From the NCBI RefSeq assembly GCF_000378765.1, contig NZ_KB905345.1, positions 124,001-188,000 of the forward strand: DNA of 64,000 bases, given 5' to 3'. Below the pieces are notes generated by a model, which was not told where the DNA came from, did not search any database, and saw only the letters and a list, made by a program, of their open reading frames with translations. The DNA comes from Psychroflexus tropicus DSM 15496. GTDB taxonomy: Bacteria > Bacteroidota > Bacteroidia > Flavobacteriales > Flavobacteriaceae. Shown piece by piece: positions 3,476 to 61,200 of this stretch. Both the position numbers and the translations under genes were made by a program. Each line of letters opens with the position of its first letter. The first letter of the stretch is position 1.

Positions 3476-4426
3476 TTAAAATCCAAAACCAATTCTAATG
3501 GCCGGATAGGTTTGTTCTGAGGATATATAAAGTTGTGGTGAAATTGTAATATAATTACCAGCTTCCCAATTCACGCCAAATCTAAATGTATCGTCATCAA
3601 ACATATCGCCGTTTTGAGAAATCAAGTAACCAAATTCTAGACCTACCCAATTGCTTTTGTCTTTATTAGTTGAAAAGTTACGTCGGTAACCCAGGCTTAA
3701 TAGGCTATTGATGTCTGCAGACGAGTTATCATTAAAATCGTAGAGTAAATTATAAGATAAATAATATTGATTTTTAAGTACGTCTTTTTTATTGAAACCA
3801 AATCCTATCTCACCTGTAAAATCAATCACTGGATCATTTTTAATTAGGTTAACACCTACACCAACCTTTAGAAATAGTAACTCACCAGTTGTGCCAATTC
3901 TATAATCCTCCTTTTTAATAAGACTATCTTTTTCAAACGCATATTTGAATAACTTCAATCTTCTACTGCGTCTGGCACTAGTATCATCAAGGGCTTGTAT
4001 TACCTTGGTAATTAAATTTTTTGAAATTAGATTTTCTTGATCATCAAATTCGATGGATATATAGTATTTATCTGAAAACACTTGACATATATTATCAAAT
4101 TGATAGGGCTTATATTCACCGTTTTCCCAAATTATTGTTTCAGCTTTTTCTTCAGTTTTAATCGTTAGCTTTTCATTCGGTTTATAAGTGATCTTGTAGG
4201 GTAAATTCTTAGGTAAATCTTGATTGACTTTCAAAATTTTCTGTAGTCTTTTCAATTCCTCACCAACATCTTTCTTCAAGTCAGAGTAATTATATATACT
4301 CATTTGTACCACTACTTGACTATCAATCTCAACAATTAGAGAATCAATAGATGGTTTTTGTGCGAAACAAAGATTAGTTAATAGAAGAAGGAACGTAATT
4401 ATGAATGTTTGCTTTAAATTTCTCAT
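3476..4426 (-). CDS. Exported protein of unknown function, probably an outer-membrane beta-barrel
   Basis: 316 residues, not recognised as a named family. Residues 1-22 are a signal peptide (hydrophobic core IITFLLLLTN, cleavage after CFAQ). The middle (25-165) is polar, and the C-terminal half has alternating hydrophobic/aromatic strands and ends in GFGF, as expected for an outer-membrane barrel that ends in Phe. It is the last gene of a unit with the anti-sigma-like and sigma genes upstream (49-nt gap). An envelope protein encoded with an ECF sigma factor is commonly its sensor or target; that link is inference. Confidence 0.7.
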   Translation of the reverse strand: MRNLKQTFIITFLLLLTNLCFAQKPSIDSLIVEIDSQVVVQMSIYNYSDLKKDVGEELKRLQKILKVNQDLPKNLPYKITYKPNEKLTIKTEEKAETIIWENGEYKPYQFDNICQVFSDKYYISIEFDDQENLISKNLITKVIQALDDTSARRSRRLKLFKYAFEKDSLIKKEDYRIGTTGELLFLKVGVGVNLIKNDPVIDFTGEIGFGFNKKDVLKNQYYLSYNLLYDFNDNSSADINSLLSLGYRRNFSTNKDKSNWVGLEFGYLISQNGDMFDDDTFRFGVNWEAGNYITISPQLYISSEQTYPAIRIGFGF

Positions 4427-4475
4427 TTTTATTTTATTAAGTTAATAATGTGGGTATATATTAAATAGTAGTTAA

Positions 4476-5234
4476 CTAATTAGAAAAGCTGCTACTTAGC
4501 GCTATGACCTCCTCTTTTGATTTTGAATTTTTACGTCCAAATTGTATTCTTAATTTTTTTGTATCCTGGTTTTTTTTTACTTCTTCTGTTTTTATAATGA
4601 TGTTTTTTTGAAAACTCAATTTTAAATTTTTTACATCATTTATATTAGCACTAAATTCGGTTAACTCAGAAGCGTTCTCAATCAATTTACCTTTGAGTAT
4701 TGTATTTGATAAAACTTCAGTTGCATTTGTACTCTTGCTGTCTTTTTCACTCTTAGAATCTGAACGTTGTGCAATCGCAATTGATGTATTCGATAGAGAG
4801 TCGGTGTCTTTTTCAACATAGACAATCTGTTTTAGGTACACCGTATCCTTAATAAACTTGGTAGTTACAAGTGATTTAGTTTCAGACTGATTTTTCTCTA
4901 TATAAACGGTATCAGTTCTTTGGCTAGCTAAATTCAGGCTAAGATCCTTAATTGACTGCAAGTTTTGATTGTCTAATTTCAATTGCTGATTAGCTTCTAA
5001 TAGTTTTTCAACTGAAGATTTGTACTTTAGGTTAGAATATGACAAAACGGATAGAAAAATTAAAAGTAAAATACTGACTGCTGACAGCAATCGATAAAAA
5101 TGTGGTACAACTTTCTTTTCGGTTTTAACTTTATTCCATACCCTTTCTTTGGCTAATTCTGCATCAGAATCGTAGAAATCATTAGATTCATTTAGGGCTT
5201 TCTTTATCAATGCATCTAGTTTATACTTTTCCAT
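4476..5234 (-). CDS. Single-pass membrane protein, putative anti-sigma factor
   Basis: 252 residues. A charged cytoplasmic segment of about 43 residues (the acidic stretch ESNDFYDSDAELAKERVW) is followed by one membrane helix at about 46-68 (LLSAVSILLLIFLSVLSY) and then a long polar, partly coiled-coil periplasmic part rich in Ser, Lys and Asn. This topology, and the 14-nt overlap with the upstream sigma gene, fit a membrane anti-sigma factor. I see no zinc-binding HxxxCxxC motif, so it would be a non-ZAS type. The role is inferred from position and topology. Confidence 0.62.
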   Translation of the reverse strand: MEKYKLDALIKKALNESNDFYDSDAELAKERVWNKVKTEKKVVPHFYRLLSAVSILLLIFLSVLSYSNLKYKSSVEKLLEANQQLKLDNQNLQSIKDLSLNLASQRTDTVYIEKNQSETKSLVTTKFIKDTVYLKQIVYVEKDTDSLSNTSIAIAQRSDSKSEKDSKSTNATEVLSNTILKGKLIENASELTEFSANINDVKNLKLSFQKNIIIKTEEVKKNQDTKKLRIQFGRKNSKSKEEVIALSSSFSN

Positions 5235-5766
5235 TGCTCTTTATTTTTTCTATTTTCTTTATAATGTGTTGTCGGGCCTTTCTAAGTTGTGATTTTGAAG
5301 TGTTTTCAGAAATATTTAGCAAACCTGATACCTCTTTATGCGAGTATCCTTCAATGGCAAATAAATTAAACACTAACCTATATCCAGTAGGCATTCTCTC
5401 AATGATGAAGTAAATCTGTTCAATGTCAATATCATTCAAATTAGAATCAAATTCCGAGTCTACAGTGAGTTCTGGTATATTATCATCGTATTTAATACGG
5501 TTTCTTTTCTTAACAAATCTTATCGATTCATTTACCACAATTGTTTTGATCCATTTGGTGAAGCTAGGTTCGCCACGGAATTCAAACTTTTCAATGTTTT
5601 TAAAGATCTTCGTAAAAGAATTGATGAGTACATCTTCTACATCATTGTGATTGTTTAGTATACGTCTTGATATATTGTACATATGTTTATAATACATCTC
5701 AAACAAGACATTTTCAGCAAATTGATTACCGGATTTACATCCATCAATGATTTTAATAATTTCCAA
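5221..5766 (-). CDS. ECF-type RNA polymerase sigma factor
   Basis: 181 residues with sigma-70 region 2 (about 20-90: LFEMYYKHMYNISRR, then DVEDVLINSFTKIF) and region 4 helix-turn-helix (about 128-175: MPTGYRLVFNLFAIEGYSHKEV, then SENTSKSQLRKARQ). It would direct RNA polymerase to a small regulon. The frame appears to start at TTG (5764-5766); no suitable in-frame ATG lies nearby. It overlaps the anti-sigma-like gene by 14 nt, implying translational coupling. First gene of a three-gene unit that sits between two identical terminator copies. Confidence 0.9.
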   Translation of the reverse strand: MEIIKIIDGCKSGNQFAENVLFEMYYKHMYNISRRILNNHNDVEDVLINSFTKIFKNIEKFEFRGEPSFTKWIKTIVVNESIRFVKKRNRIKYDDNIPELTVDSEFDSNLNDIDIEQIYFIIERMPTGYRLVFNLFAIEGYSHKEVSGLLNISENTSKSQLRKARQHIIKKIEKIKSNGKV

Positions 5767-6189: not shown

Positions 6190-9100
6190 CTACTTTTCGA
6201 GATAAGGCTCTACTTTCTCTTTGATTTCCTCAACGATGCTAGGGTCTAATAAAGTGGATACATCCCCGATTTGGTCTCCTTCGTTAGATGAAATCTTTCT
6301 CATAATTCTACGCATGATTTTACCACTTCGGGTTTTAGGAAGTCCAGAGACAAAATGAATGCGATCCAGTTTGGCAATAGGGCCTATTTTACTGGCAATT
6401 AACTGATTGATTTCCTTACTCAAGTTTTCTTTATTCCTGGATTCTCCATCTGTTTTTAAGATGACAAAACCCGCTAAGGCATTTCCTTTCACATTGTGTA
6501 GGAATCCAATAATAGCTGATTCTGCGACCGCTGGGTGCTCATTGATGGCGTCTTCTATAGGGGCAGTTCCTAAATTATGTCCAGATACAATGATAACGTC
6601 ATCTACTCTACCCGTAATTCTATAATAGCCGACTTCATCCCTCAAAGCACCGTCCCCCGTAAAATAAACGTTTTTGAAGGCGGAGAAGTACGTTTCCTTA
6701 TATCGCTTATGATTCCCATAAACGGTTCTTGCCATACTAGGCCAGGGATGTTTAATGCAGAGTCGACCTGAAACCGAATTCCCTTCGATTTCATTTCCAT
6801 TCTCATCCATCAGTGATGGTTGTATACCAGGTAATGGAAGCGTGGCATAAGTTGGTTTGGTTGGAGTCACAAAAGGTATTGGTGAGATCATAATACCTCC
6901 AGTTTCTGTTTGCCACCAGGTATCGACGATGGGGCAAGTTTTTTTTCCAATATTTTCGTTGTACCAGTTCCAGGCTTCTTCATTAATGGGCTCTCCTACA
7001 CTTCCCAGAACTTTCAGAGATGATAAATCGTATTTATTGACATGCTCAATATCCTGTTTAGCTAGAGCTCTTATTGCTGTAGGAGCCGTATAAAACTGAT
7101 TTACTTTATACTTATCTACAATTTCCCAGAATCTACCAAAGTCTGGATAAGAAGGCACCCCCTCAAACATTAGGGTTGTAGCCCCATTCAATAATGGACC
7201 ATAAACAATATAAGAATGTCCTGTAATCCACCCTATATCTGCTGTACACCAGTACACATCATTTTCCTGATATTGAAACACGTTTTTGAATGAAAAGGCT
7301 GAGTAAACCATGTATCCAGCAGTGGTATGTACCATTCCCTTTGGTGTTCCGGTTGAACCAGAGGTGTATAGAATAAACAACATGTCTTCTGCGTCCATGA
7401 CTTCAGCTTCGCAAGTATTGTCGACTTGCTTTAATTCGTCATGAAGCCAAACGTCTCGATCATCGACCATATCCACTTTACCAAATGTTCGCTTAGCCAC
7501 CAACACAGATTCAACTGAAGGTGTCGTTTCTAAAGCTTCATCTACAATACCTTTTAGATCAATACTTTTAGCTCCACGATAAGATCCATCTGAAGTAATC
7601 ACCATTTTACAATCAGAATCATTAATTCGGGAAGCGAGTGCAGAGGCTGAAAATCCAGCAAAAACAACGGAGTGCACCGCACCTATTCTAGCGCAGGCCA
7701 GAGTAGCGATAGCCAGTTCAGGAATCATAGGCAGATAAATACAAACACGGTCGCCTTTATGTACGCCATTCTTTTTGAGCACATTTGCCATTTTATTAAC
7801 CCGCTTAGACAGTTCCCCGTAGCTGATGTGCAAAGCCTCTTCTTCTGGATTATTAGGTTCCCATATTATCGCTGTTTTATCTGCTCTAGTCTTCAGGTGT
7901 CTGTCTATCGCATTTTCGGTAATGTTGAGTTTTGCCCCTTCGAACCAGGTCACTTTTGCTTCTTCAGGGTTCCAGTTTAAAACCGAATCCCATTTTCGTT
8001 TCCATTCGAAATTTCGTTCTGCAATAGTGTTCCAGAAATTCTCAGGATCGTTTTGAGATATGCGATACACATCCATGTACTTAGCTAACGAATCTATGTT
8101 GTAATAGCTTTTGGTAAGCGCCTTTAAAGATTGAGTCACCTGATCTTTATTCTTACTAAACGCTCCGATCTTTTTTTGATTGAAAGTTTCAATAATATCA
8201 CTAATCACCATGGGATCTTCAATGGTAGATGGTAATTTGTAAGGCTCTCCTGCCACTAATTTTCTTAAGGTTCGTCTTAATATTTTGCCACTTCGTGTTT
8301 TTGGTAAGCGTTTAACCATCACCACTGTTTTTAAGGAAGCAATAGGACCAATTTTATCTCTGACTAACTGGACAATTTCGGTCTCCATTTTGTAAGATTC
8401 ATAATCTTCTTCGCCTGTTTTGGGGACTACGATTGCTAGAGGTATTTCGCCTTTTAAATCATCTGTAAGTCCTACTACGGCACATTCTGCAACCGAAGAA
8501 TGCTGAGATACTACCTCCTCCAATGCCGCTGTAGAGAGACGATGTCCTGACACATTAATCACATCATCTATTCTTCCTGTTATAAATACATAGCCGTCTT
8601 CATCAACATACCCACCATCGCCAGAAAAATAATAACCAGGAAACTTACTGAGGTATCCGTTTTTATAGCGCTCATGATTTTGCCAAAGGGTTTGCATGAA
8701 ACCAGGAGGCAAAGGCAATTTAGAACAGATATAACCTTCCGCATTAGGACCTAACTGCTCTCCATCTTCCGAAAGAATCTGAATATCATATCCCGGTACA
8801 GGTTTTCCCGCAGAACCTGGTTTTACGGGTAAAGGGTCCAGTCCCATAAAATTAGCAACGATAGACCAACCGGATTCGGTTTGCCACCAATGATCGATCA
8901 CAGGAATCTTTAAATGCTCTTCTGCCCAGTTTAAGGTAGTTTCATCACAACGTTCGCCTGCTAAAAACTGATATTTCAAAGAGGATAGATCGTATTTTTT
9001 GATAAACGCTCCATCAGGATCTTCTTTTTTAATGGCTCTAAAGGCAGTAGGAGCTGTAAACATAACATTTACCTTATGATCTTCTATCACTCTCCAAAAC

Positions 9101-10050
9101 GCACCTGCATCGGGAGTTTTAACTGACTTTCCTTCATAAATTACAGTTGCATTCCTATGGATAAGAGCTCCGTACACTATATAGCTATGCCCAACAACCC
9201 AGCCTACATCTGAAGCCGCCCAAAAAACATCCCCTGGTTGAGTCCCATAAATATTTTCCATTGAGTATCTAAGGGCTACAGCATAACCACCTGTATCTCT
9301 AACCACTCCTTTTGGAGATCCAGTAGTTCCAGAAGTGTAAAGTATATAGGAAGGATCTTTAGATTTCAAGGCCACAGCTTCAGCAGGAGTAGCCTTATCA
9401 GTTAATTCTAAATAATCAACATCATAGGCTTTTGTTTCAAATTTAACTCCCAGTTTTCTGTTGAAGACCACTACTTTTTCAACCTTATGCTTGGCCTTTT
9501 CTATAGCTTCATCCACCATAGGCTTATATTCGATAAGACGATCCACTTCTATTCCTGAAGTTGCCGTAATGATGACTTTTGGCTTTGCATCATCGATCCT
9601 CATGGCTAGTTCGTCTGGTGCGAAGCCTCCAAAAACAACCGAATGTATGGCGCCTATTCTTGCACAGGCCAGCATACTAAATAACGAATGCGAAATCATA
9701 GGCATATAAATAATCACGCGATCACCTTTTTCAACGCCTAGCTCTTTAAGTCCTCCTGCCAGCTTAGAAACTTTTTCTAGAACCTCATTGTAAGTATATT
9801 TTACCTGCTTCTGTCGCACCGCAGAGTCATAAATTAAGGCCACTTCGTCTCCATAACCATTTTCAACATGCTGATCTAAACACAAGTAGCTTAAGTTTGT
9901 CTCTCCATCTGGAAACCAGTGGTAAATACCTTCTTCTGTTTGCTCCAGGGCTTTGGTTGGGGCTTTGAACCAGTTAGTCTTTTTTGATTCCTCCATCCAG
10001 AATTGTTCTGGATGATCAATGCTGTTTTGGTAAGTGTCTTTATAAGTCAT
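6190..10050 (-). CDS. Fused propionyl-CoA synthetase (PrpE)-acetyl-CoA synthetase (Acs) double enzyme
   Basis: One uninterrupted 1286-residue ORF holds two complete AMP-forming acyl-CoA synthetases in tandem. The N-half (about 1-630) reads as PrpE-like, the C-half (about 650-1286) as Acs-like. Each half has its own nucleotide loop (YTSGTTGSPKG 238-248; YTSGSTGTPKG 895-905), WWQTE motif (388-392; 1045-1049) and C-terminal PKTRSGK with catalytic lysine (K589; K1244). The acyl-pocket position that is Val in acetate enzymes (GSVGEP) is Val in the C-half, while the N-half has LAGER, consistent with propionate versus acetate preference (family knowledge, not tested). The enzymes are normally separate proteins of about 630-650 residues. 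The linker is about 20-30 residues. It is the last gene of an acetate sensing/uptake operon, 12 nt after the response regulator. Confidence 0.93.
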   Translation of the reverse strand: MTYKDTYQNSIDHPEQFWMEESKKTNWFKAPTKALEQTEEGIYHWFPDGETNLSYLCLDQHVENGYGDEVALIYDSAVRQKQVKYTYNEVLEKVSKLAGGLKELGVEKGDRVIIYMPMISHSLFSMLACARIGAIHSVVFGGFAPDELAMRIDDAKPKVIITATSGIEVDRLIEYKPMVDEAIEKAKHKVEKVVVFNRKLGVKFETKAYDVDYLELTDKATPAEAVALKSKDPSYILYTSGTTGSPKGVVRDTGGYAVALRYSMENIYGTQPGDVFWAASDVGWVVGHSYIVYGALIHRNATVIYEGKSVKTPDAGAFWRVIEDHKVNVMFTAPTAFRAIKKEDPDGAFIKKYDLSSLKYQFLAGERCDETTLNWAEEHLKIPVIDHWWQTESGWSIVANFMGLDPLPVKPGSAGKPVPGYDIQILSEDGEQLGPNAEGYICSKLPLPPGFMQTLWQNHERYKNGYLSKFPGYYFSGDGGYVDEDGYVFITGRIDDVINVSGHRLSTAALEEVVSQHSSVAECAVVGLTDDLKGEIPLAIVVPKTGEEDYESYKMETEIVQLVRDKIGPIASLKTVVMVKRLPKTRSGKILRRTLRKLVAGEPYKLPSTIEDPMVISDIIETFNQKKIGAFSKNKDQVTQSLKALTKSYYNIDSLAKYMDVYRISQNDPENFWNTIAERNFEWKRKWDSVLNWNPEEAKVTWFEGAKLNITENAIDRHLKTRADKTAIIWEPNNPEEEALHISYGELSKRVNKMANVLKKNGVHKGDRVCIYLPMIPELAIATLACARIGAVHSVVFAGFSASALASRINDSDCKMVITSDGSYRGAKSIDLKGIVDEALETTPSVESVLVAKRTFGKVDMVDDRDVWLHDELKQVDNTCEAEVMDAEDMLFILYTSGSTGTPKGMVHTTAGYMVYSAFSFKNVFQYQENDVYWCTADIGWITGHSYIVYGPLLNGATTLMFEGVPSYPDFGRFWEIVDKYKVNQFYTAPTAIRALAKQDIEHVNKYDLSSLKVLGSVGEPINEEAWNWYNENIGKKTCPIVDTWWQTETGGIMISPIPFVTPTKPTYATLPLPGIQPSLMDENGNEIEGNSVSGRLCIKHPWPSMARTVYGNHKRYKETYFSAFKNVYFTGDGALRDEVGYYRITGRVDDVIIVSGHNLGTAPIEDAINEHPAVAESAIIGFLHNVKGNALAGFVILKTDGESRNKENLSKEINQLIASKIGPIAKLDRIHFVSGLPKTRSGKIMRRIMRKISSNEGDQIGDVSTLLDPSIVEEIKEKVEPYLEK

Positions 10051-10062
10051 AACTAAAGATTT

Positions 10063-10437
10063 TTATTGTTTTTCGGTTAGTAATTCATTGATTCTATGTA
10101 GTAGTTTTTTCATGGAGAAAGGCTTTTTAATATAGTCCTTAGCTCCGAGTTCAAAGCCTTTTTGAACGTCACTTTCTTTATGTTTTGCACTGATGACAAT
10201 AGTTTGAGTTTTGTTTTTTAATCCTTCGTGTTGCTGTAAAAATTCCAAAACTTCGTACCCATCCACTTTGGGCATCATAATATCCAAAACCACCAGGTCG
10301 GGTTCTAGTTTTTCGATTAAGTTGATAGCTTCCTCACCGTCTCTGGCAATGAAAATATCATAATTGTTTTTTCTTAAACTATATTCCAATGCCATAATGA
10401 TATTAGGCTCATCGTCTACAAGTAAGATCTTTTTCAT
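10063..10437 (-). CDS. Receiver-only response regulator
   Basis: 124 residues comprising just a CheY-like receiver: acidic pair D8/D9, phospho-acceptor D52 (VVLDIMMP), S83 and the KP pair K105-P106. No DNA-binding output domain is present. Its ATG overlaps the stop of the upstream kinase by 4 nt, so it is the likely partner of that kinase. In proteobacterial CrbS/CrbR acetate systems the regulator carries a LuxR-type DNA-binding domain; its absence here means output must go through another protein or by direct contact. Confidence 0.93.
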   Translation of the reverse strand: MKKILLVDDEPNIIMALEYSLRKNNYDIFIARDGEEAINLIEKLEPDLVVLDIMMPKVDGYEVLEFLQQHEGLKNKTQTIVISAKHKESDVQKGFELGAKDYIKKPFSMKKLLHRINELLTEKQ

Positions 10438-13130
10438 AGTTTAGGTTTTGGTAAATTCACTATAATTTCTGCACCAATCTCAAGATCAGCATTGGCATAA
10501 ATTTGACCTCCGTGCATCTCAACAATTTGCTTACAGATAGCTAGGCCAAAGCCACTCCCCTGAGGCTTTTTATAGGTCTGATGTTTTGATTGATAGAATT
10601 TTTTGAAAATCAGTTGTAAATCTTCATCGGGGATGCCCTTGCCGTTATCTTTAACCTTCAGGTAAATTTCTTCTGAATTTGAATCCAGATGTATTTCAAT
10701 TTTTCCAGTTCCTTCCTTTACAAACTTTATAGAGTTAGATAGCAAATTGGTAATGACCTGAAGCATTTTGCTGTAATCAAATTCAGTTATAACACTACTA
10801 GAGGATTGAAACTCAACTTTGATTTGTTTTTGCTGAACAATACTACTGATTCCGTGGATAGCATCTTCAACGCAATCAGTCAAGTTATGAGGTTTTAGGT
10901 TTAACTCATCCCGGCCTGAAGCCATTTTTTCGAGATCTAGAATATCATTGATCAAAACATTTAAACGTTCTGTATCCTGAATAATATTACTGAGAAATTG
11001 ATTCTGAAGCTTCTCGGGCATCTCCTCATCTTCTGATAAAACTTCTGAACTCGCCTTAATTGATGTGATGGGTGTCTTCAACTCATGAGCCACAGTGTCT
11101 AAAAAATCATCTTTCAGCTGATCCTGGACCTTTAGTTCTTCATTAGCTGATTTTAATTCTGAAGTAAGCTTCATCAGCTTCTGGCTTTGTTCCTCTAAGG
11201 ACTTATTCAGAGATAGGGTTTCTTTATTCTCTTCTAATATTTTAAGCACTTCTACTAGAGAAACTGGCTTTTCTTTGGCGACACTGGAAATTAGTATTTT
11301 AGCCGAAGCACTTCCCACAGCACCTGTTAGTAAGCGCTCAGAAAAATTAATAAATCTGGCATCCGCTAATTGTTCTTCTGGATTTACCGCATATCGCTTT
11401 CTAAAAACTCTTAAAGCTTTATCGGCTTTACTCTGTCCTAAGAATCGAATCAATAAATTTTGAATATCCTCCACATAAGCCTCGCCCTTCCAGACATAAG
11501 CATTCTCTTTTAGGTCAACAACTTTTTGACTATTCACGAAAATCTCTCCGTAATTACGCTCTCTATAATTCCCTTTTTTAACTACAGAAAGCACTAAATA
11601 AGTGCCCGTATTCAGAATTAAGCTCCAATACAGGGCATGATTTACAGGGGTAAGTAAATCAATGCCAAACAAGGCGTAAGGCTTAAGCATTTCAACGCCC
11701 AAAAATCCTTCATCCACAAATTGATTATCACTCAGAATATTTTCAGTAATAAAGGGGAGTAAATAAGTATAGCCAACAATGAGCAAGCCTGAAACAATTC
11801 CAATTTTGGAACCCAAGGCAGAACCCCGATTCCAAAATAAACCGATGAAAAAACTGGGAGCTAATTGTGCTATTATCAAAAATGAAATCAATCCAATTGA
11901 AAACAAGGATAACTTAGGGTCAAAAACAGAATACAACCCATAAGCGAGAATGATAGAGCTAAACACTGAGATTCTTCGAATGGATTTGATCGTTTTAGTG
12001 TTATTAACCGATTTGCTTTTGGTGAGTTTTTCTAAAAATCCATAAGGAATAATCAGGTTATTACTCAGCATGGTTGATAAAGCGACGGTGGAGACCACCA
12101 CCATAGAAATCACTGCTGAAAGCCCTCCCAAAAACACGAGTGTAGCTAACCAATAATCTCCAAATGCTATAGGAATGAGAAGTGTAAAATAATCTGCATT
12201 CACCTGTTCTCCAAGAACTAAAAGTCCGCCCCAGGCTATAAAAATGACAAACACATTGAAGAGCAACAGGTAAAGTGGGAATAACCAGATCGAAGTTTTC
12301 AATTGCTTACGATTGCTAAATTCTACCACAGAGGTCTGAAACTGACGTGGTAAAAGAAAGATCGCTAAAAATGAAAGTATAATACTAAAGTACCAGTTGA
12401 CCCCACCTTCCAGACCATCTATGGAACTTAAGCTCTTAAGATCTATTTGATTCTCGGCTTGAGTATAAATATCAGAAGTTCCATCAAACACATAATAGGT
12501 GACATAAATACCTACAATAAGAAAAAAAATCAATTTTAAAACAGATTCAGCTGCTACAGAAAACATCACCCCCGTTCTGTTTCTTGAGGCATCTAAAGAT
12601 AAGGTTCCAAAAAATGCAGCAAAAGCCGCAAGAAGGATAGCGATATAAAACGTGGAATCTGTTAGCACTGAAGTGCCCTCAATTCCTATGGTAGAAGTAG
12701 ATACTACTTCAAATGTTTCTGAAACCGCTTTTAATTGTAAAGAAATGTATGGAATAATACTCGCAGCACAGACCAGTGTCACTAAAGCTCCTAAAGATTT
12801 ACTATTACCATATCTAAGCGAAATGAAATCTGCGATACTAGATACATTATACACTTTAGAAATTTGGATGATTTTCTTCAGTACAATAATCCATAAAGGT
12901 GCAGCAATCACCGGGCCTAGGTATATCGTAAGAAACTCTATTCCAGAGGTAGCGGCCATTCCCACGCTGCCATAGTAGGTCCAGGCCGAACAATATACAG
13001 CCAAGGAAAGGGCATAGACTGCCGGATGTGAAACCAATCTTGACCCTTTATTTTTTTCTGCCAAAAAGGCAATGAGAAATAAAAGTCCCAAATAGATAAA
13101 TATCAACGCTATGAGAGCAGTCTTACTCAT
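10434..13130 (-). CDS. Sodium/solute-symporter-type sensor histidine kinase (CrbS/CbrA-like)
   Basis: 898 residues. Residues about 1-515 are a multi-helix SSS-family transporter module (starting ALIALIFIYLGLLFLIAFLA). About 545-620 is a soluble linker that could be the STAC domain typical of these proteins. Then follow a short coiled coil (640-672) and a histidine kinase core: H682 in the VAHELKTP box, N-box NLLSNSIKF (796-804), G1 DNGKGIP (828-834) and G2 GSGFGLAI (858-865). Related proteins CrbS and CbrA control acetate or carbon use, and CrbS regulates acs. Here the gene is in one operon with an acetyl-CoA synthetase and an acetate symporter, so acetate sensing is a strong inference. Start codon overlaps the upstream stop by 1 nt. 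Confidence 0.93.
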   Translation of the reverse strand: MSKTALIALIFIYLGLLFLIAFLAEKNKGSRLVSHPAVYALSLAVYCSAWTYYGSVGMAATSGIEFLTIYLGPVIAAPLWIIVLKKIIQISKVYNVSSIADFISLRYGNSKSLGALVTLVCAASIIPYISLQLKAVSETFEVVSTSTIGIEGTSVLTDSTFYIAILLAAFAAFFGTLSLDASRNRTGVMFSVAAESVLKLIFFLIVGIYVTYYVFDGTSDIYTQAENQIDLKSLSSIDGLEGGVNWYFSIILSFLAIFLLPRQFQTSVVEFSNRKQLKTSIWLFPLYLLLFNVFVIFIAWGGLLVLGEQVNADYFTLLIPIAFGDYWLATLVFLGGLSAVISMVVVSTVALSTMLSNNLIIPYGFLEKLTKSKSVNNTKTIKSIRRISVFSSIILAYGLYSVFDPKLSLFSIGLISFLIIAQLAPSFFIGLFWNRGSALGSKIGIVSGLLIVGYTYLLPFITENILSDNQFVDEGFLGVEMLKPYALFGIDLLTPVNHALYWSLILNTGTYLVLSVVKKGNYRERNYGEIFVNSQKVVDLKENAYVWKGEAYVEDIQNLLIRFLGQSKADKALRVFRKRYAVNPEEQLADARFINFSERLLTGAVGSASAKILISSVAKEKPVSLVEVLKILEENKETLSLNKSLEEQSQKLMKLTSELKSANEELKVQDQLKDDFLDTVAHELKTPITSIKASSEVLSEDEEMPEKLQNQFLSNIIQDTERLNVLINDILDLEKMASGRDELNLKPHNLTDCVEDAIHGISSIVQQKQIKVEFQSSSSVITEFDYSKMLQVITNLLSNSIKFVKEGTGKIEIHLDSNSEEIYLKVKDNGKGIPDEDLQLIFKKFYQSKHQTYKKPQGSGFGLAICKQIVEMHGGQIYANADLEIGAEIIVNLPKPKL

Positions 13131-13396: not shown

Positions 13397-15184
13397 TTAA
13401 TGTCCTGAAGCTTCTCCAGCTCCACTAGGTATTCTCACATTTTCCACCATTTCCTGAACGTCCTGAGGAGGTGCAGGTGTAAACTTGCTGATGGCAATAG
13501 AAACCGTAAAATTGACGAGCATGGCAACAGACCCAAATCCTTCTGGGGAAATCCCGAACCACCAGTCTTCTGCTGTACCTCCACCGAAGAAGTCAAATTT
13601 GAATTTCATCATATAAAATATCATCAATGAGATCCCGACGACCATACCAGCTATGGCCCCTTCCTTATTCATTCGCTTGTAGAAAATACCTAGAATGATA
13701 GCAGGGAAAAAAGAAGCTGCCGCAAGACCAAAGGCTAATGCAACCACAGCGGCTACAAATCCGGGGGGATTAATTCCGAAGTAACCTGCGACGACCACAG
13801 CGGCTACAGATGATAAACGAGCAGCGATCAATTCTCCCTTATCAGTAATTTTTGGATACACCATTTTTTTGATCAGATCATGAGAAACCGAAGAAGAAAT
13901 CACCAACAACAGACCAGCTGCAGTAGATAAAGCCGCAGCGAGACAACCTGCTGCAACTAAGGCAATGACCCAGTTGGGTAAATTTGCGATTTCAGGATTG
14001 GCCAAGACCATGATGTCCTGATCAACGTACAATTCGTTTTTGTTATCAGATGGATTCATCACCACACGCTCTCCATTTTCTCCCCTTCCTTTTTCTTGAA
14101 AAGCAGGAATGCCAGTAAGTGCATTACCACCTTCTTTGGCTTTTCCTAAATATTTAATCTTACCATCTTGATCTTTATCTGTCCAAGCTAATAGCCCTAA
14201 ATCTTCCCAGGTTGTAAACCATTCTGGCATATCTACATAGTCTTTCTCATTGACTGTCTCTAGCATGTTCAATTTGCCAAACGAGGCAACTGCAGGAGCT
14301 GTGATGTAAAGAATTCCAATAAACAATAAGGCATACCCAGCCGATTTTCTGGCATCTTTTACTTTTTTTACTGTAAAAAATCTCACAATCACATGCGGTA
14401 AACCTGCAGTTCCTACCATTAAAGCTAAGGTGATGGCAAAGACATCTATAATATCTTTGGAGCCTTCCGTATAAGCGCTGAATCCAAGTTCCTGGCTCAA
14501 GCCATCCAATTTATCAAGCATGTAAGTATCGGGCTGGCTAGCTAAAGTGTCACCCATTCCAAACATAGGAATAGGGTTTCCAGTAACTTGAAATGAGATG
14601 AAAATGGCTGGAACAAGAAATGCAAAAATAAGTACACAATATTGTGCAACTTGCGTGTAGGTAATACCCTTCATACCGCCTAAAACTGCATAAAATAGAA
14701 CTATGATCATACCGATGATCACGCCGGTTTCAATTTCTACTTCTAAAAATCTTGAAAATACTACCCCAACACCTCTCATTTGCCCTGCTATATAGGTGAA
14801 GGAGACGAGTAGCGCACATATTACAGCCACTGAGCGTGCCACTTTCGAATAATAGCGGTCTCCTATAAAATCGGGAACCGTAAATTTTCCAAACTTCCTA
14901 AGGTAAGGTGCAAGCAGAAGTGCAAGTAGAACGAATCCTCCAGTCCACCCCATAAGAAATACAGAGCCATCGTAGCCCATAAATGAAATAATACCTGCCA
15001 TGGAAATAAAAGATGCAGCAGACATCCAGTCGGCAGCTGTAGCCATTCCATTTGCTAAAGGCGAGACTCCTCCGCCGGCAACATAAAATTCTTTAGTTGA
15101 GCCTGCTCGACTCCAAATCGCTATGCCGATGTAAATAGCAAATGAAATGCCAACGAAAATATAAGTAAGTGTTTGAGAATCCAT
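13397..15184 (-). CDS. Cation/acetate symporter, SSS family (ActP-like)
   Basis: 595 residues with about 13 membrane helices. The N-terminal FYVAGGGVSPLANGMATAADWMSAASF region and the RFFTVK stretch after a TAGLPHV motif are typical of ActP-type sodium:monocarboxylate symporters. A soluble insertion of about 90 residues rich in Asp, Lys and Gly (about 300-395) is larger than in enterobacterial ActP. It imports acetate or related short carboxylates across the inner membrane. It is separated by 6 nt from the DUF4212 gene upstream and lies in one operon with the kinase and the synthetase. Confidence 0.92.
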   Translation of the reverse strand: MDSQTLTYIFVGISFAIYIGIAIWSRAGSTKEFYVAGGGVSPLANGMATAADWMSAASFISMAGIISFMGYDGSVFLMGWTGGFVLLALLLAPYLRKFGKFTVPDFIGDRYYSKVARSVAVICALLVSFTYIAGQMRGVGVVFSRFLEVEIETGVIIGMIIVLFYAVLGGMKGITYTQVAQYCVLIFAFLVPAIFISFQVTGNPIPMFGMGDTLASQPDTYMLDKLDGLSQELGFSAYTEGSKDIIDVFAITLALMVGTAGLPHVIVRFFTVKKVKDARKSAGYALLFIGILYITAPAVASFGKLNMLETVNEKDYVDMPEWFTTWEDLGLLAWTDKDQDGKIKYLGKAKEGGNALTGIPAFQEKGRGENGERVVMNPSDNKNELYVDQDIMVLANPEIANLPNWVIALVAAGCLAAALSTAAGLLLVISSSVSHDLIKKMVYPKITDKGELIAARLSSVAAVVVAGYFGINPPGFVAAVVALAFGLAAASFFPAIILGIFYKRMNKEGAIAGMVVGISLMIFYMMKFKFDFFGGGTAEDWWFGISPEGFGSVAMLVNFTVSIAISKFTPAPPQDVQEMVENVRIPSGAGEASGH

Positions 15185-15465: not shown

Positions 15466-16689
15466 TTATAGGTATATCATAGCCTGAAGGCTGATTATAT
15501 TCTGATTTATAAGTCCAAAAGATTCTGATTTGTACTCCAGGGTTAACTTTGAATGATGACCACTGAAAAAGGCATTCAAACCAACACCAAAGATGCTTTG
15601 GTTGTCTGATGTGACATCATATTGCTGTAAAGCGTAAGAGAGATAGGGTTGTAGTTTGAAATCCTGATTATCACCAGGTAACACAAAACCGGCATGGCCG
15701 TAAAGAAAAGACCCAGTTCCATAGGGACCAAAGAGGTAGTTTTCACCATAATCATTCTGCTGATAAACAGCATAAGCGGTTAAAGCAGCATTTCTAGTTC
15801 CAATAGGAGAATCGTAAAATACATCAAAAGCATACAGAAAAACATCTTCTCCAACGGCTTGATTATTACGTTCTATTGCACTACCGTTAGGATGAGAAAA
15901 AAATCCTGTTCCAATGGTCAGTACTTTTTTCCCTCCCAGGTAGGATCCCACTTTGTAAGGAAGGTAATTGGATTCCTGATCCAAAAAATGATAAGAAAAA
16001 TACCCGGCGTAGTTATAAAGAGCCTCGGCTGAACCCAAATTATTGAGTCCAGTATAGGTGGCTTCATTAGGGTTGATAAGTCTGGAATCAAGTCCATCAC
16101 TAATTGCATTATTGATAGCCACCTGATATTGAAGCTTATCAATATTCCCTTTGGCAAATACACCAAGATGACGAGCAAACTGATCGCTTAAGCCCAAGGT
16201 AGACCAGGAGGATCTGTTATTATCCAAAGTCATCATGTTGAGCGTAGACTGGTTATTTAGCCTCGAAATACCGTTAAAGTAATGTAAGCCTGCTCCAACA
16301 GAATGACTTTCGTTTAAATTATACTGAGCCCAGGCATCGTGAAGAAAAACCTGCGATCCATCTCCAGTCCCTAAGGGATCCATATTTTGTGAACTCAAAT
16401 TGTTAAGCCCAATGTGGGAAACAATTAAAAAATCATCGGAAATCTGGCCAATAAATAAGAGCCTGGCTCTTCTAAGTAAAAAATTGGTAGAACTGACATC
16501 TTCAGGAACCTCATCCTGATAATTGAACTGAGCCTGAGCCCAGGATATTATTCTAAGGTACTTACCTGGCTGTTCTTTGTCGAATTCAATTTTGAATCCT
16601 CCTTTGTAATTAGGAGAGCCTTGGGCATTGGCGTTCAAAAAAGAACCTATCAAGCAAACTATCAAAAAAAGTCTAAATTTATTATTCAT
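15466..16689 (-). CDS. Outer-membrane porin-like protein of the acetate operon
   Basis: 407 residues with a signal peptide (1-23, cleavage after ANAQ), then alternating amphipathic strands with a phosphate-porin-like N-terminal segment (KIEFDKEQPGKYLRIISWAQ) and a C-terminus ending LQAMIYL. Likely a beta-barrel channel supplying the small carboxylate to the periplasm, since it is the first gene of the symporter-kinase-synthetase operon. Substrate is inferred from context. A nested dyad lies in its leader at 16696-16738. Confidence 0.85.
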   Translation of the reverse strand: MNNKFRLFLIVCLIGSFLNANAQGSPNYKGGFKIEFDKEQPGKYLRIISWAQAQFNYQDEVPEDVSSTNFLLRRARLLFIGQISDDFLIVSHIGLNNLSSQNMDPLGTGDGSQVFLHDAWAQYNLNESHSVGAGLHYFNGISRLNNQSTLNMMTLDNNRSSWSTLGLSDQFARHLGVFAKGNIDKLQYQVAINNAISDGLDSRLINPNEATYTGLNNLGSAEALYNYAGYFSYHFLDQESNYLPYKVGSYLGGKKVLTIGTGFFSHPNGSAIERNNQAVGEDVFLYAFDVFYDSPIGTRNAALTAYAVYQQNDYGENYLFGPYGTGSFLYGHAGFVLPGDNQDFKLQPYLSYALQQYDVTSDNQSIFGVGLNAFFSGHHSKLTLEYKSESFGLINQNIISLQAMIYL

Positions 16690-16802: not shown

Positions 16803-17216
16803 CTAATCTTTAAATCTCTCCCATTTGATCACCATATATTTATCCCCTAATTCCGTAACAATCATACCAGAACCCTTGGTGTTCTCAGGCGTAGAAAAAT
16901 AGGATCCAAGCTCAGACTGGCTTAGTATTTTATAAGTAGGATGTACTTCTGAATTTTGGACTTTATGAACATTATATTTTTTCACCCAGTTCATCACACT
17001 CACATGAGAAATACCTAATATTCGTTCAATTTCACGATAAGTTAATCCCTCTAAGTAAAGCTGAAGCGCTTTGGTGACATAATATTGATCAATTTTTTTT
17101 CCAAGTTTATTGACGGTAAAAAAATAATTACAGGACTTACATTTGTAGCGCTGACGCTGATTTACTATTCCACTTTTAACGATTTGAGATGATTGGCATT
17201 GAGGACAGAATTTCAT
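16803..17216 (-). CDS. IS1 InsA-like zinc-ribbon/HTH protein, probably a domesticated regulator
   Basis: 137 residues. The N-terminal zinc ribbon has CPQC (4-7) and CKSC (27-30). A helix-turn-helix follows at about 55-80 (LTYREIERILGISHVSVMNWVKKY), the architecture of IS1 InsA. The remaining ~55 residues are unrelated to a DDE catalytic domain. No InsB, terminal inverted repeats or target duplication are visible around it, so it is not an active IS. It lies 113 nt upstream of the porin gene in the same direction, with a tandem repeat over its own promoter region, which suggests a regulator of the acetate operon. That role is inference. Confidence 0.75.
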   Translation of the reverse strand: MKFCPQCQSSQIVKSGIVNQRQRYKCKSCNYFFTVNKLGKKIDQYYVTKALQLYLEGLTYREIERILGISHVSVMNWVKKYNVHKVQNSEVHPTYKILSQSELGSYFSTPENTKGSGMIVTELGDKYMVIKWERFKD

Positions 17217-55995: not shown

Positions 55996-58278
55996 TTAAA
56001 ACGGATAACCAATAGCAAAGTTAAGAACCGGATTGGCAGAATCAAAATTCCACGAGGTAGAAGGTTCTTTTATTGGAGTTGCTAAATCTAAACGAATCAC
56101 AAATCCCTGAATATCTACTCGCAAACCAAATCCAAATCCAGCCCCTAATTCATTTATAAAATTAGAACTGAATTGCCCACCTGGTGTGGCATCGTTTTCA
56201 TTCACTAACCAGACATTCCCGGCGTCTGCAAAAAAAGCGCCCAAAAGATATTCTGAAATAGGGAACCTATATTCCAAATTGGCTTCCAGTTTAATATCTC
56301 CAGATTGATCAAAAAAGGAATTGCTTCCATCTTCCGGAGAAAAGGTTCCTGGTCCCAGAGACCTAATTCTAAAAGCCCTAACGCTATAGGGACCTCCAGA
56401 AAAATATTGCTTGACGAATGGGAGAGACTCTGTTGAGCCCATAGGTTGTCCTGCACCAGCGAAAACCCTTGCGACCAGTTTTTGCCTTTTCTGATCTAAT
56501 TTGAGATGATACCTCAAATCTATGTCTGCCTTAAAATAGTGCGCGTACTCCAGGCCTAAAAATTCATTGTTGCCTTCCTGATTTTCAGAACCTAAAAGAT
56601 TAAGTCCGTTCCCGGCCATATCGTAATTGAAACCGAAATAAAGACCTTGACTCGTCGATTGGTCTTTGATTTCATTATAAGTGAAATTATAAGTCAATCC
56701 CGCTATAAATTGCTGCTCAAAACTTCGTCTTAAAAAGGGGTTATTATCAAGAATATTTTCAAATTCTTCTGAAGTATTCCCGAGGCTAACAAACTCTAAA
56801 TTAATAGGTCTCAGCTCATGAGTCACGTAGCTATTCCCTTCCCAGATGTATCCAAAAGATGAAGAGACAGAACTCAAGGTGTAAAGTTGTGTTCTATTAA
56901 GATGATCAAAACCTAAGCTGACTTTCGTTTTGGGGATAGCATATTCAAAACTTTCATTGAGGTCTATAGGGAAAATAAGTCTGGGAAATAAAAGAGAAGC
57001 ATTTAATCCAGCCTGAATACTGCTCAACCCCTGGTCTCCTGTCCTTCCAAAAAATTGTTGTTCATAGCCTCCATTTAATGAAATCCTCAATAATTCTCCA
57101 CCTTTAAATAAGTTTCTATTGGAATATACTACCCCAATATTAGGTCCGGTAAAATTATTAGACTTTGTAACTGCCTGAAATTCCAATCTCAGAGAACGTT
57201 TATTTAAGGGTGATAAATAGATATTGGAGATAAGATGTCTTCTCCCCTGCTCGTCTGCTACAGTATCTTTTTCTTCATAGTCGATATTCACAAATTTATA
57301 AGTACTGATGGAAGATAATCTCCTACTGGTATAACTCGATAATTTTGGACTGTAGGTGTCCCCGGGTTTTATAAGCACATAGGGCTTGAGGTATTTCGGC
57401 TTAAAGAATACTGAATCCTGTATGAAGTTATATCCTTCGTAGTTTAATGTATCTTTTGCTTTTTCCTCATCAGTAAAGCTCCTATTGGGGTGAATATTAA
57501 CCTCATCGATTACATAAGGAACCAGTGATTTTTTTGGCACTTCTGATTTAAATCTTAAAAAGAGATCAAATTTTCTTTTTTCATAGGCATTGGTATCGGC
57601 CTCGAAAATTAAAAAATCAGAATTGAAATTATAGTAACCTCTTGCTTTTAAGTACTGGTCTATGCGTTCCCGTTCTGATTTGAGATCATAAAAATTAAAG
57701 AGACTGTTATCTTCAATTTTAGTTTCTTTTAAAGAAGCCTGTATATCATTATAAATGCTTAAGCTGTCTTCCAAGGTTTTGTTGAGTTGATATGACTTTA
57801 GGGTGTAGGGCTCAGTCAATTCAATTGTATAATCAACTGAAGTAGATACATCCGATGAATCTCTTTGGATAGAAGACCTGACAATACTCCCAAAATAACC
57901 GCTGTTTTCCAGCCGGTTATTTAAGATCTTTTCTGCCCCTGCAACGTCGATACTTTCGAAATAATACGGGTCTTCACCAAATTGCTTATTCAAAAATTTG
58001 TTGATAAAACCAGGCTTTTCCCTATTAGCTTTAAAATGAAAATAAAGACCAGGTCGCATACCCAGGAATTTAGTATTGGTTTTTCGAGCTATAGCTAAAT
58101 TGAGTCTAGCTTCCAGCTCATCATAGTCTTTATCTTCCTTATTATTTAGCTCAATTTCAGAACCTGTGTAGAGGGTTTTATCTTCTGGGATGAATTTTTC
58201 CACACTACATGAAGTGATCAAAACAGATACTACAGAGATAAAAGTAATCGATATGTATACCTGTTTAATTTTTATCAT
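55996..58278 (-). CDS. TamL: BamA/TamA-like outer-membrane lipoprotein
   Basis: 760 residues. Lipoprotein signal with lipobox LITSC; two POTRA-like segments (about 60-270); C-terminal 16-strand Omp85 barrel with YFSGGPYSVRAFRIRSLGPG (lid-lock VRGF-like motif) and a C-terminus ending AIGYPF. In Bacteroidota such lipoproteins (TamL) replace TamA and pair with TamB. The gene overlaps the TamB gene by 14 nt, supporting a joint complex in outer-membrane assembly or lipid transport. Confidence 0.92.
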   Translation of the reverse strand: MIKIKQVYISITFISVVSVLITSCSVEKFIPEDKTLYTGSEIELNNKEDKDYDELEARLNLAIARKTNTKFLGMRPGLYFHFKANREKPGFINKFLNKQFGEDPYYFESIDVAGAEKILNNRLENSGYFGSIVRSSIQRDSSDVSTSVDYTIELTEPYTLKSYQLNKTLEDSLSIYNDIQASLKETKIEDNSLFNFYDLKSERERIDQYLKARGYYNFNSDFLIFEADTNAYEKRKFDLFLRFKSEVPKKSLVPYVIDEVNIHPNRSFTDEEKAKDTLNYEGYNFIQDSVFFKPKYLKPYVLIKPGDTYSPKLSSYTSRRLSSISTYKFVNIDYEEKDTVADEQGRRHLISNIYLSPLNKRSLRLEFQAVTKSNNFTGPNIGVVYSNRNLFKGGELLRISLNGGYEQQFFGRTGDQGLSSIQAGLNASLLFPRLIFPIDLNESFEYAIPKTKVSLGFDHLNRTQLYTLSSVSSSFGYIWEGNSYVTHELRPINLEFVSLGNTSEEFENILDNNPFLRRSFEQQFIAGLTYNFTYNEIKDQSTSQGLYFGFNYDMAGNGLNLLGSENQEGNNEFLGLEYAHYFKADIDLRYHLKLDQKRQKLVARVFAGAGQPMGSTESLPFVKQYFSGGPYSVRAFRIRSLGPGTFSPEDGSNSFFDQSGDIKLEANLEYRFPISEYLLGAFFADAGNVWLVNENDATPGGQFSSNFINELGAGFGFGLRVDIQGFVIRLDLATPIKEPSTSWNFDSANPVLNFAIGYPF

Positions 58279-61200
58279 CTTCAGTCTCAGTTTTTTCGTT
58301 TTTAACCTCTATTTCTTCTTCTTTAAGTGACTCTCGGTAAGCCTTGTTCCAAAGGACTTTAAATTTATTGAATTCTCTGGTAAAAATGAGAGCAATACCG
58401 CTAACGAAGACCTGTCCATCGATCACGTTTTCGTATTCACTTTTGCGAAATCCTCTCAATTTCCAGCGTCCATCTTCTGTAAGCAAGTATTCTACGTTAA
58501 CGTTCCCAACTACAGATTGACTTTCTCCCGGTCGTTGACCTCCTTCAACATTCACAGAACTACCTGCCTCGACAACCAGTCTGTCATCCAGTAGTTTTTT
58601 TTGAGCAGTGACATCCACATTAGTTCTATCCTGTACGGTGCTTCCTTGATAATCTGTATAACTATTCACATCAAAGTTTAAAGATATACCTGTATTGCCA
58701 GTCAATTTATCAGAAAATGCATTGAGCTGGTCTGAAAGTGCCTGATTGAGATTATCTCTTGCCATTGTTGCAGGACCTCCTCTACTTCCATCACTCCCGG
58801 CATCAGGGTAAAATCTATTTAAAACAAGTAACGAAAATACCTGCTTGTTGAGCTGATCTTCCTGCTGATTAATTTGAGATAGTCGCCCGTAGACAGACCC
58901 ATTTATTGCTCCTCTCTGGCTTTCTGGCATGTCTAATTGGAAACTGAGTTGAGGTGATGTAAGTTCTCCACCAACATCCAGGTAGACTTCAAATGGAAGT
59001 TGTTGTCTGTATCTGTTTTGTACAGCGACACTTTCTCCGGCAGTTTGAGAAGCCATTAGTGCGCTGGCAGAGGTTTCGATATTGTAGATAGCTCTTAAAT
59101 CTAGCTTGGCATTATAAGGGTCTCCGCTCCAGGTCACTGAACTTGAAGAGGCAATATTAAACTTTCGCTTTACGATATTATAAAGATTGAGTTCTACACT
59201 TCCTTTAGACACTTTATATTTACCTACCAGATCCATCTTACCGGTTCTGGAAATATCAAATTTAAAATCCCCACCTCCCTGAACTAAGACGTTATCTCCA
59301 GATCTTTTATTAAAAACAACTTTTACTTTAGCTTTATTATCAATCTTAATGCTACTATCAAGATCTACACCTGTAAGGACCACTTCAAAATCTTTTTTGT
59401 CACGCTGAGTTAAAATATCGTCTGGATTTTCTTTATTCACAAAGACCACAACACCATCTCGTTCATCTATGCTTGCTGTTGATTCTGGTATGATATAGTT
59501 AAGATCAGTAGCTTCTTTGATAGACAGGTCCAAATTAACTTTTGGAAAGTCAAGTTCTCCAGTGATATCCGCATCCGCATCAAAAATCAATTTTCCAAAA
59601 TAAAGATCATTATCTTCAATGTTGGAATCTAAAAGCAGAAAATCCTTAGCGTTTAAAGTCAGGTTAAACTCAGGATTGGTTAGGTTCTCAATATCAACAG
59701 AACCATCGGTTGTAAATGTATTGCCCTTAACGTCTCTTATGGTAAAAGAGTCGAAATTTATTGTATTATTATTCAATTTAATCGTTTCATCTTGAAGCTG
59801 AAGCAATGTATTAAGGGGTTTGAGATTCAATTCAACAGCATTGAATCCCAAAAGACCTTCGTAATCCAGTTGTCCTGGCGATCCTTTTATTTCTAATTTT
59901 CCTTCAAGCTTGCCTTTAGATTCTTGGATAAAGTCTGTTGCAAACTTCTCAAGAGTATTCATCTCCAGCTTTTTTAAATCAAAATTCAAATTGATATTGG
60001 TTTCTACTTCATTGGTATGGTAAAGACCTTCAGCTATTAGTTCAATACCTGCATCATTTAGGCTAAGATCCAACTGATAATCATCTTCAGAATTGGCTTC
60101 TGCCTTTAAAGCTAAATTCCCTAAAGGAACTTCTGTCAATTTCAAATCTTCAATATTTAAGTTGGATATCAAACCATTTGTAACTAAAGGCTCTAAAACT
60201 ACAACTCTACCGCTCAGTTTCCCTGCCGCTATTTTTTCCTCTGGATTTAAATAATTTGTAATAGTGGATAACTTGAAATTCTCAAATACAACACCAATAT
60301 GATTTTTCTCAAACTCTAAATCATCCCTCAGTTGAATACTCTGGTTATTTCTGGTCAATCTAAAATCATCTACCCTTATACTATCCTTTTGATAAATAAT
60401 CTCATTTTCAGACGAGATGTTCCAGCTTGTCCCATTGAGTATGAGTTCCTCTGGTGAAATGTTTATCCGGTATTGGTTATTCTCTTCAAACTCTACAGAC
60501 ACCGAGGAATTAAAAAAATCCTTATCCCCCTTAAAGGCATCCAATTGAAGGTTCAAGGACTGATCTTTAAAAACACCTTCCACTTTAGTTGTTGCAACTT
60601 CCAGAGGACCTGCTGAGATCTTATCGAAGCCAAAATTGAAATTTGCGCTTTTTCCATTAGAATTAATTTTTAATTGGAGCCCATTTAGCTCATTATCTTT
60701 ATAATTCAAATATGGTAGATTTAAGTTTGAGGTTAGTTCATCCTGTGCTTCATGAAAATGAATTGAAACCTGCAAAGAGTCCATTTGTTGAATCCCATCT
60801 ACAAATACATCTGAAATAATTGGCACATCCACAAAAGCTAATTCTAAATCTAAATCGATCGGAGTCTTAGTTGTTTTGACTGAAGTTGAGTCTTTAGTAT
60901 ATAATTTGAAGTGATTCTGAAGTGCCTCAGTAATTCCAGCAATATCGCTATTAGCTTTTAATTCTCCATTTAAAAATGAACTCGTTACAGAGGCCTTAGT
61001 TCTTGTGCTATCCACTTGAGCAGAAACATCAACATCTCCCAAATAGTAAGGTCTGTCATCATAAACGACTTGCCCTTCTTTCAACTGAGTTTTTAAATCA
61101 AATCGATTGGTATTTCCTTGAAATGATATATTCGCCAAAACTTTAGCTCTTATGTCTTTTCTGGTTAAACCTAACTGCTGAGCAGCAATACCCTCAAGAT

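Follow-up and report, generated by a model that had tools for sequence, protein, structure and literature searches.

An in-frame fusion of PrpE-type and AcsA-type acyl-CoA synthetases in Psychroflexus tropicus and its relatives

Here we describe a gene of Psychroflexus tropicus DSM 15496 that joins, in one reading frame, a PrpE-type and an AcsA-type acyl-coenzyme A (CoA) synthetase, with the core motifs of both intact. This natural fusion lies on the minus strand of a 64,000-nucleotide stretch of contig NZ_KB905345.1 (positions 124,001 to 188,000; the whole stretch is called "the window" below), behind genes for a putative porin, a symporter, a symporter-like histidine kinase, and a response regulator. 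Overall, we consider it probable that the gene encodes a single bifunctional protein activating both propionate and acetate, that it arose by loss of a stop codon, and that it closes an uptake and sensing cluster.

A single gene encoding two synthetases

The fusion gene is an open reading frame (ORF) that runs from an ATG to a stop over 1286 codons, with its sole stop at the end. Its parts, in coordinates of the window, are:

6190..10050, minus strand: PrpE-Acs fusion gene, 1286 aa, recognized by frame, domain, and homology matches and kept in relatives
8185..10050, minus strand: PrpE-like half, residues 1-622, with ACAS_N, AMP-binding, and C-terminal domains and Ala364 at the Val386 pocket site
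8086..8232, minus strand: linker, approximately residues 607-655, made up of the PrpE tail and new sequence followed by the Acs start; conserved in the genus, with a low ratio of non-synonymous to synonymous rates (pN/pS)
6193..8124, minus strand: AcsA half, residues 643-1286, above the AcsA equivalog cut-off

The Pfam domains ACAS_N, AMP-binding, and AMP-binding_C were each matched in two stretches of the protein, whose mass, estimated from its length, is ~143 kDa. Motifs of the N-terminal (N) half are TSGTTG (position 239), LAGER (363), WWQTE (388), and RSGK (586, lysine K589), and those of the C-terminal (C) half are TSGSTG (896), GSVGEP (1016), WWQTE (1045), and RSGK (1241, lysine K1244). 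A first-pass annotation of this DNA had proposed one uninterrupted ORF holding both synthetases, each with an intact P-loop, WWQTE, and catalytic-lysine motif; its frame, coordinates, and strand were all correct, and every one of these motifs could be located in the protein. The only other Acs/PrpE match in the genome was local and weak (E 6.8e-4), and lay in a frame of 604 aa. A recent duplication of one synthetase was considered and rejected, as the best-scoring family differs between the halves, and either half matches the relatives of the other at only ~40%. A phage origin was rejected as well: scanning viral contigs with the PrpE half returned 40 pattern matches and no relative.

Conservation and spread of the fusion

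We searched 27 genomes of the genus and found the fusion in 20, as 16 whole genes and 4 interrupted by contig ends (G002, G005, G006, G014). Two members carry separate neighboring genes (G026, and G023, in which prpE is cut by a contig end), and five carry Acs alone (G004, G020, G009, G010, G013). At least eight genomes from outside the genus also carry it, i.e., G029, G286, G437 (g4), G317 (g67), G252, G418 (g223), G048 (family f13), and G052 (family f2). At least 9 of 397 genomes from a family sample carry it, in a match list ordered by score so that whole fusions are expected at its head, as do 5 of the 19 PrpE-bearing genomes in a second family sample (239 genomes), 5 of 89 in an order sample (395 genomes), and 3 of 99 in a phylum sample (395 genomes). 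A scan of named genomes, which is not a census, gave no PrpE-Acs fusion by a motif rule among the 80 loci kept from at least 595 stretches. The search of other genomes proposed in the first-pass annotation thus recovered the fusion across most of the genus and beyond, where it also forms a second clade. As a separate observation, PrpE is fused to an ornithine cyclodeaminase/mu-crystallin-like domain in a 995-aa frame of an Acidimicrobiaceae metagenome-assembled genome (L112:2060-5044).

All 24 whole fusions that were read keep LAGER, G[ST]VGEP, both WWQTE motifs, and both P-loops, and two of them come from single-contig genomes (G019 and G025), which speaks against the hidden stop or assembly error that had been raised as a possible flaw. 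Over 11 within-genus pairs, pN/pS was 0.028-0.12 for the N half, 0.028-0.169 for the linker, and 0.025-0.089 for the C half, although many pairs show saturation at synonymous sites, of which the linker holds only ~30. Both halves and the linker are therefore under purifying selection within the genus. Given the low linker values and the presence of the fusion in at least 28 genomes (20 in the genus and at least 8 outside), an artefact in which sequencing or assembly deleted a stop, for which we found no supporting point, has a negligible probability and was rejected.

Enzyme identity of the two halves

The C half scored 963 bits against the AcsA equivalog model TIGR02188, well over its cut-off of 725, in agreement with its first description as an acetyl-CoA-type synthetase. 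For the N half, the two top-scoring models were both PrpE models, but the scores remained below the curated cut-offs (751 vs 955 bits for NF007815, 695 vs 827 bits for TIGR02316) and slightly above the broad acetate--CoA ligase cut-off (675 vs 657 bits). The earlier label "propionyl-CoA-type" is thus borne out by the best scores and not by the curated thresholds. Seven PrpE-like proteins of other genomes, including Halomonas and Vibrio, also score best with the PrpE models, and all seven miss both PrpE cut-offs while five pass the broad one. These cut-offs thus appear tight, and "PrpE-like" is the safe name for the N half.

Pocket residues, numbered as in Salmonella enterica Acs and counted by hand on alignments to PDB chains, also differ between the halves. 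At the Val386 site, the C half has Val and the N half has Ala364 of LAGER; at the Thr311 site, the C half has Thr and the N half Val; and Trp414 is Trp in both. A change from Val to Ala at the Val386 site favors propionate. The contrast between LAGER and GSVGEP, highlighted in the first-pass annotation as a pocket difference, does fall on this site, but the split of propionate and acetate duties that was drawn from it is a prediction, since the N half lies under the curated PrpE cut-offs. With this caveat, we infer a division of labor in which the N half would be the propionate enzyme and the C half the acetate enzyme. According to PMC10455477, the pocket Trp sets the acyl range.

Alternatively, the halves may overlap in range, both activating acetate-like acids; the N half would then be a paralogue of Acs whose pocket is wider, rather than a propionate enzyme. 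We regard this as unlikely: while the N half sits above the broad acetate--CoA ligase cut-off and below the PrpE equivalog cut-offs, it scores best with PrpE models, as do its seven relatives, and it carries Ala at the Val386 site. In addition, 19 of 239 family genomes have PrpE, and every one of them also has the kinase described below, whereas at least 376 of 397 family genomes match one half or the other.

The C half retains the catalytic lysine motif, the P-loop, and the Val386 and Trp414 pocket. Two arginines that contact CoA/adenylate in S. enterica Acs, Arg526 and Arg584, are replaced in this half by Asn and Ala. Among 60 separate Bacteroidota Acs rows and 28 fused rows, the Arg526 site is Asn in all readable cases (35/35 separate Acs, 26/26 fused C halves), and Arg584 is kept in 0 of 34 readable separate Acs and 2 of 24 readable fused C halves; the alignment chain 2p20 is itself Ala at 584, and the wild-type residue was taken from PMC10455477. 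Since separate Bacteroidota Acs with readable motifs lack the same arginines, their absence is no sign of decay after fusion, and decay of the C half was rejected as an explanation. The weight of these residues is also disputed: PMC10455477 cites work on S. enterica Acs in which catalysis fell only 2-fold, and states that its own results contrast with this.

Origin of the fusion and loss of its PrpE half

We next compared the fusions with 48 separate PrpE loci (37 from Bacteroidota), which are best-scoring loci rather than a random draw. By the motif rule, an Acs frame occurs in the same locus for 35 of the 37 Bacteroidota loci and 0 of the 11 others, counts that leave out the PrpE loci of family f32, the source of most phylum matches. 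In four of these loci (L024, L032, L033, L034), prpE and acs share one frame and are parted by one to three TAA codons (one each in G049 and G112, two in G064, three in G077), so that removing these stops would give exactly the fused order. Since acs adjoins PrpE so regularly in Bacteroidota and these four in-frame pairs exist, the fusion is probably the product of stop loss, occurring once or twice, in a long-standing prpE-acs pair.

The fusions fall into two clades, A and B, whose linkers differ in length and sequence. Clade B was separated from clade A in the C-half tree (support 100/99) and weakly so in the N-half tree (support 86). Approximately unbiased (AU) tests on the C-half tree nevertheless allowed a single fused clade (p 0.087 with L037 over-long, 0.192 with L037 correctly cut), a further AU test was likewise compatible with it (p 0.175), and with N and C columns joined a tree with a single fused clade gave a slightly better fit (p 0.565). 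Taken together, this suggests that there were probably either one or two fusion origins. The trees used loci below L112 only, without the repeats L058, L059, L060, L063, L072, and L082 (for the C half, L091 was omitted as well) and without separate-gene C rows of ≤550 residues. L037 was absent from the N tree and over-long in the first C tree; the values given for a correct cut come from a repeat of the C-half tree and both of its tests, whereas the N tree, the further AU test, and the joined-column comparison rest on the misplaced cut of L037.

Two genus members (G004 and G020) lost the PrpE half after the fusion. Their Acs-only genes retain the linker as N-terminus and are placed inside the fused clade in the C-half tree, where a grouping of the 20 clade-A fusions without them was rejected (p 2e-5; 6e-6 with L037 correctly cut), this clade-A-only group having been defined after the tree was seen.

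These patterns also bear on whether the fusion brings any benefit. It could be neutral, i.e., co-made enzymes joined by stop loss that work independently and with no gain over the gene pair, a possibility to which we assign a little less than an even chance and which shares the enzyme identities proposed above, denying only a benefit. The relatives whose halves share a frame and are parted by one to three stops, the differing linkers of the two clades, and the two members that dropped PrpE and kept Acs would all fit such a scenario. On the other hand, the linker is conserved across the genus at the pN/pS values given above, and 20 of 27 members retain the fusion although one stop codon would undo it. 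Moreover, no re-separated prpE/acs pair was seen within clade A, as the trees place the unfused genes of G026 and G023 elsewhere.

Genomic context

The fusion gene is the last of a same-strand series in the order porin, symporter, kinase, receiver, and fusion. Features of the window outside the fusion gene are:

10063..10437, minus strand: receiver-only response regulator, 124 aa, ending 12 bases before the fusion gene start
10434..13130, minus strand: 898-aa histidine kinase whose N-terminal domain is symporter-like (SLC5); its gene overlaps that of the regulator by 4 bases
13397..15184, minus strand: sodium/solute symporter of the VC_2705 family (TIGR03648), 595 aa, identified by model match; adjacent to the kinase gene in 13 of the 20 regions compared
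15466..16689, minus strand: putative outer-membrane porin, 407 aa, whose sole model match is the ExtI porin (84 bits, cut-off 150)
16803-17216: IS1-type transposase fragment (81 bits, under the model cut-off), inside the stretch missing in G004
3476-5766, same strand as the fusion and downstream of it: extracytoplasmic function (ECF) sigma factor and two further genes, for one of which an anti-sigma role is a guess
58265-63295, minus strand: 1676-aa open frame from the open reading frame list

In the kinase, only HisKA and HATPase domains were found, extending to residue 896 of 898, with no C-terminal receiver domain. Its N-terminal domain gave no Pfam or NCBIfam match up to E 10, and a profile comparison matched it to the family of the neighboring symporter (probability 94, E 1e-7).

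Across 20 regions compared, symporter, kinase, and receiver genes lie beside the synthetase genes in 13, fused and tandem alike, and a porin homologue follows the symporter in 10 of these 13. G052 has the receiver only, while G003 (fused) and five Acs-only regions lack any cluster gene. In the sample of 239 family genomes, the kinase was detected in 23 and the PrpE half in 19. Every genome with PrpE is among those with the kinase, and 216 of the 220 without PrpE also lack it (Fisher 1.5e-24). Three of the four kinase-only genomes (G088, G166, G192; the fourth is G224) have Acs within ~0.9 kb of the kinase, leaving no space for PrpE. Within the genus, the kinase was detected in 19 of 22 PrpE genomes (not in G003, G016, or G023) and in none of the five without PrpE (Fisher 7e-4). 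PrpE and the symporter-like kinase are thus tied closely enough to make propionate a testable signal for this kinase family, whose studied relatives were linked to acetate.

In G004, loss of the PrpE half could also be traced at the DNA level: its sequence follows that of the window down to 17346, and collinearity resumes at 8132. The intervening ~9.2 kb, holding the IS1 fragment, porin, symporter, kinase, receiver, and PrpE half, is gone in one piece: Acs was retained, and the PrpE part was lost together with the uptake and sensing genes.

Elsewhere in the genome, genes for methylmalonyl-CoA mutase subunits adjoin each other, carboxyltransferase proteins, assigned by type and not by substrate, are present, and no match to the MmgE/PrpD family was found, which together suggest that propionyl-CoA is most likely processed via methylmalonyl-CoA.

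A possible mechanism

In the mechanism we favor, acids would enter through the porin and symporter, and the kinase would sense these acids, or their flux, and raise synthetase expression. The N half would activate propionate, and perhaps other small acids, and the C half acetate, each by the usual two steps in which an acyl-adenylate is formed from ATP and the acyl group is then transferred to CoA. Acetyl-CoA would feed central metabolism and propionyl-CoA would be converted to methylmalonyl-CoA. As the stop between adjacent prpE and acs would have been lost, both activities would be supplied in fixed 1:1 amounts by what we predict to be one unprocessed polypeptide. If active, this protein would provide both acetyl-CoA and propionyl-CoA from a single, ready-made chain.

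Several observations weigh against this mechanism. Catalysis by either half is predicted from sequence, the N half misses the curated PrpE cut-offs, and the C half has Asn and Ala in place of Arg526 and Arg584. On the regulatory side, the response regulator consists of a receiver with no output domain, which leaves its mode of action unclear, G003 and G016 kept the fusion with no kinase match, and both Fisher values ignore shared ancestry. Potential internal start codons also count here, as they would allow a free Acs to be made next to the full chain: of the 20 clade-A fusions, 19 have an ATG at residue 614 and 13 have one at residue 659, and the linker stretch of most fusions of both clades contains GTG or TTG codons. 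Such a free Acs, or cleavage of the linker, could mean that the working enzymes are separate, and Acs does exist as a free protein with a linker remnant in G004 and G020. However, no ATG is present in the same stretch in any of the 8 clade-B fusions, that of G048 is without any start-type codon, and Met614 lies in the conserved PrpE tail, where it may be kept for the sake of the protein. We therefore doubt that separate enzymes are the working form.

The two halves may also share a regulatory state, for example if lysine acylation shut both off together, or if they competed for CoA and ATP within the same molecule. Propionate and acetate activation could then be balanced against propionyl-CoA toxicity, with the conserved linker setting the coupling. 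Both the shared state and this balancing role are speculative, and we rate each as improbable.

Comparison with known systems

What is new here is the arrangement: the enzymes and the gene pair were already known, and there is no evidence yet of new chemistry. The first-pass annotation knew of no such enzyme class, and we likewise found no description of a tandem PrpE-Acs form in the literature searched, whose coverage left out most subscription journals. A natural fusion with an Acs-type part does exist in propionyl-CoA synthase (PDB 6eqo), to which a sequence match was found, and which combines Acs, hydratase, and reductase parts rather than two synthetases.

CrbR is a response regulator with a DNA-binding output, unlike the 124-aa receiver-only regulator found here. 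The CrbS/CrbR (MxtR/ErdR) acetate-switch two-component system to which it belongs controls acs and actP in Pseudomonas and Vibrio, according to PMC5715377 and PMC5436829; in the main text of either, "propion" does not occur. The SLC5-type kinase of the window resembles this system in adjoining acs and a symporter gene, and differs from the CrbS-type kinase, which carries a C-terminal receiver (PMC5436829), in having none and in its receiver-only partner.

Compared with PrpE (TIGR02316, NF007815; PDB 5gxd, the chain closest to the N half), residues 1-621 give a collinear full-length match with the core motifs, Ala at the Val386 site, and Trp414, but score below the curated cut-offs and are joined to Acs rather than separate. 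Compared with AcsA (TIGR02188; S. enterica Acs, PDB 1pg3/2p20), residues 654-1278 match over the full length and pass the cut-off, whereas the fusion places PrpE and the linker at the Acs N-terminus, and Arg526 and Arg584 are replaced as noted above. The closest counterpart is the Bacteroidota prpE-acs pair, which has the same gene order and, in the tandem regions compared, the same upstream cluster, but encodes two proteins with one or more stop codons between them. Together with this pair, the fusion forms a natural series, from separate adjacent genes to an in-frame pair with one stop, a fused gene, and a fused gene that then lost one half, with several of these stages found in one genus.

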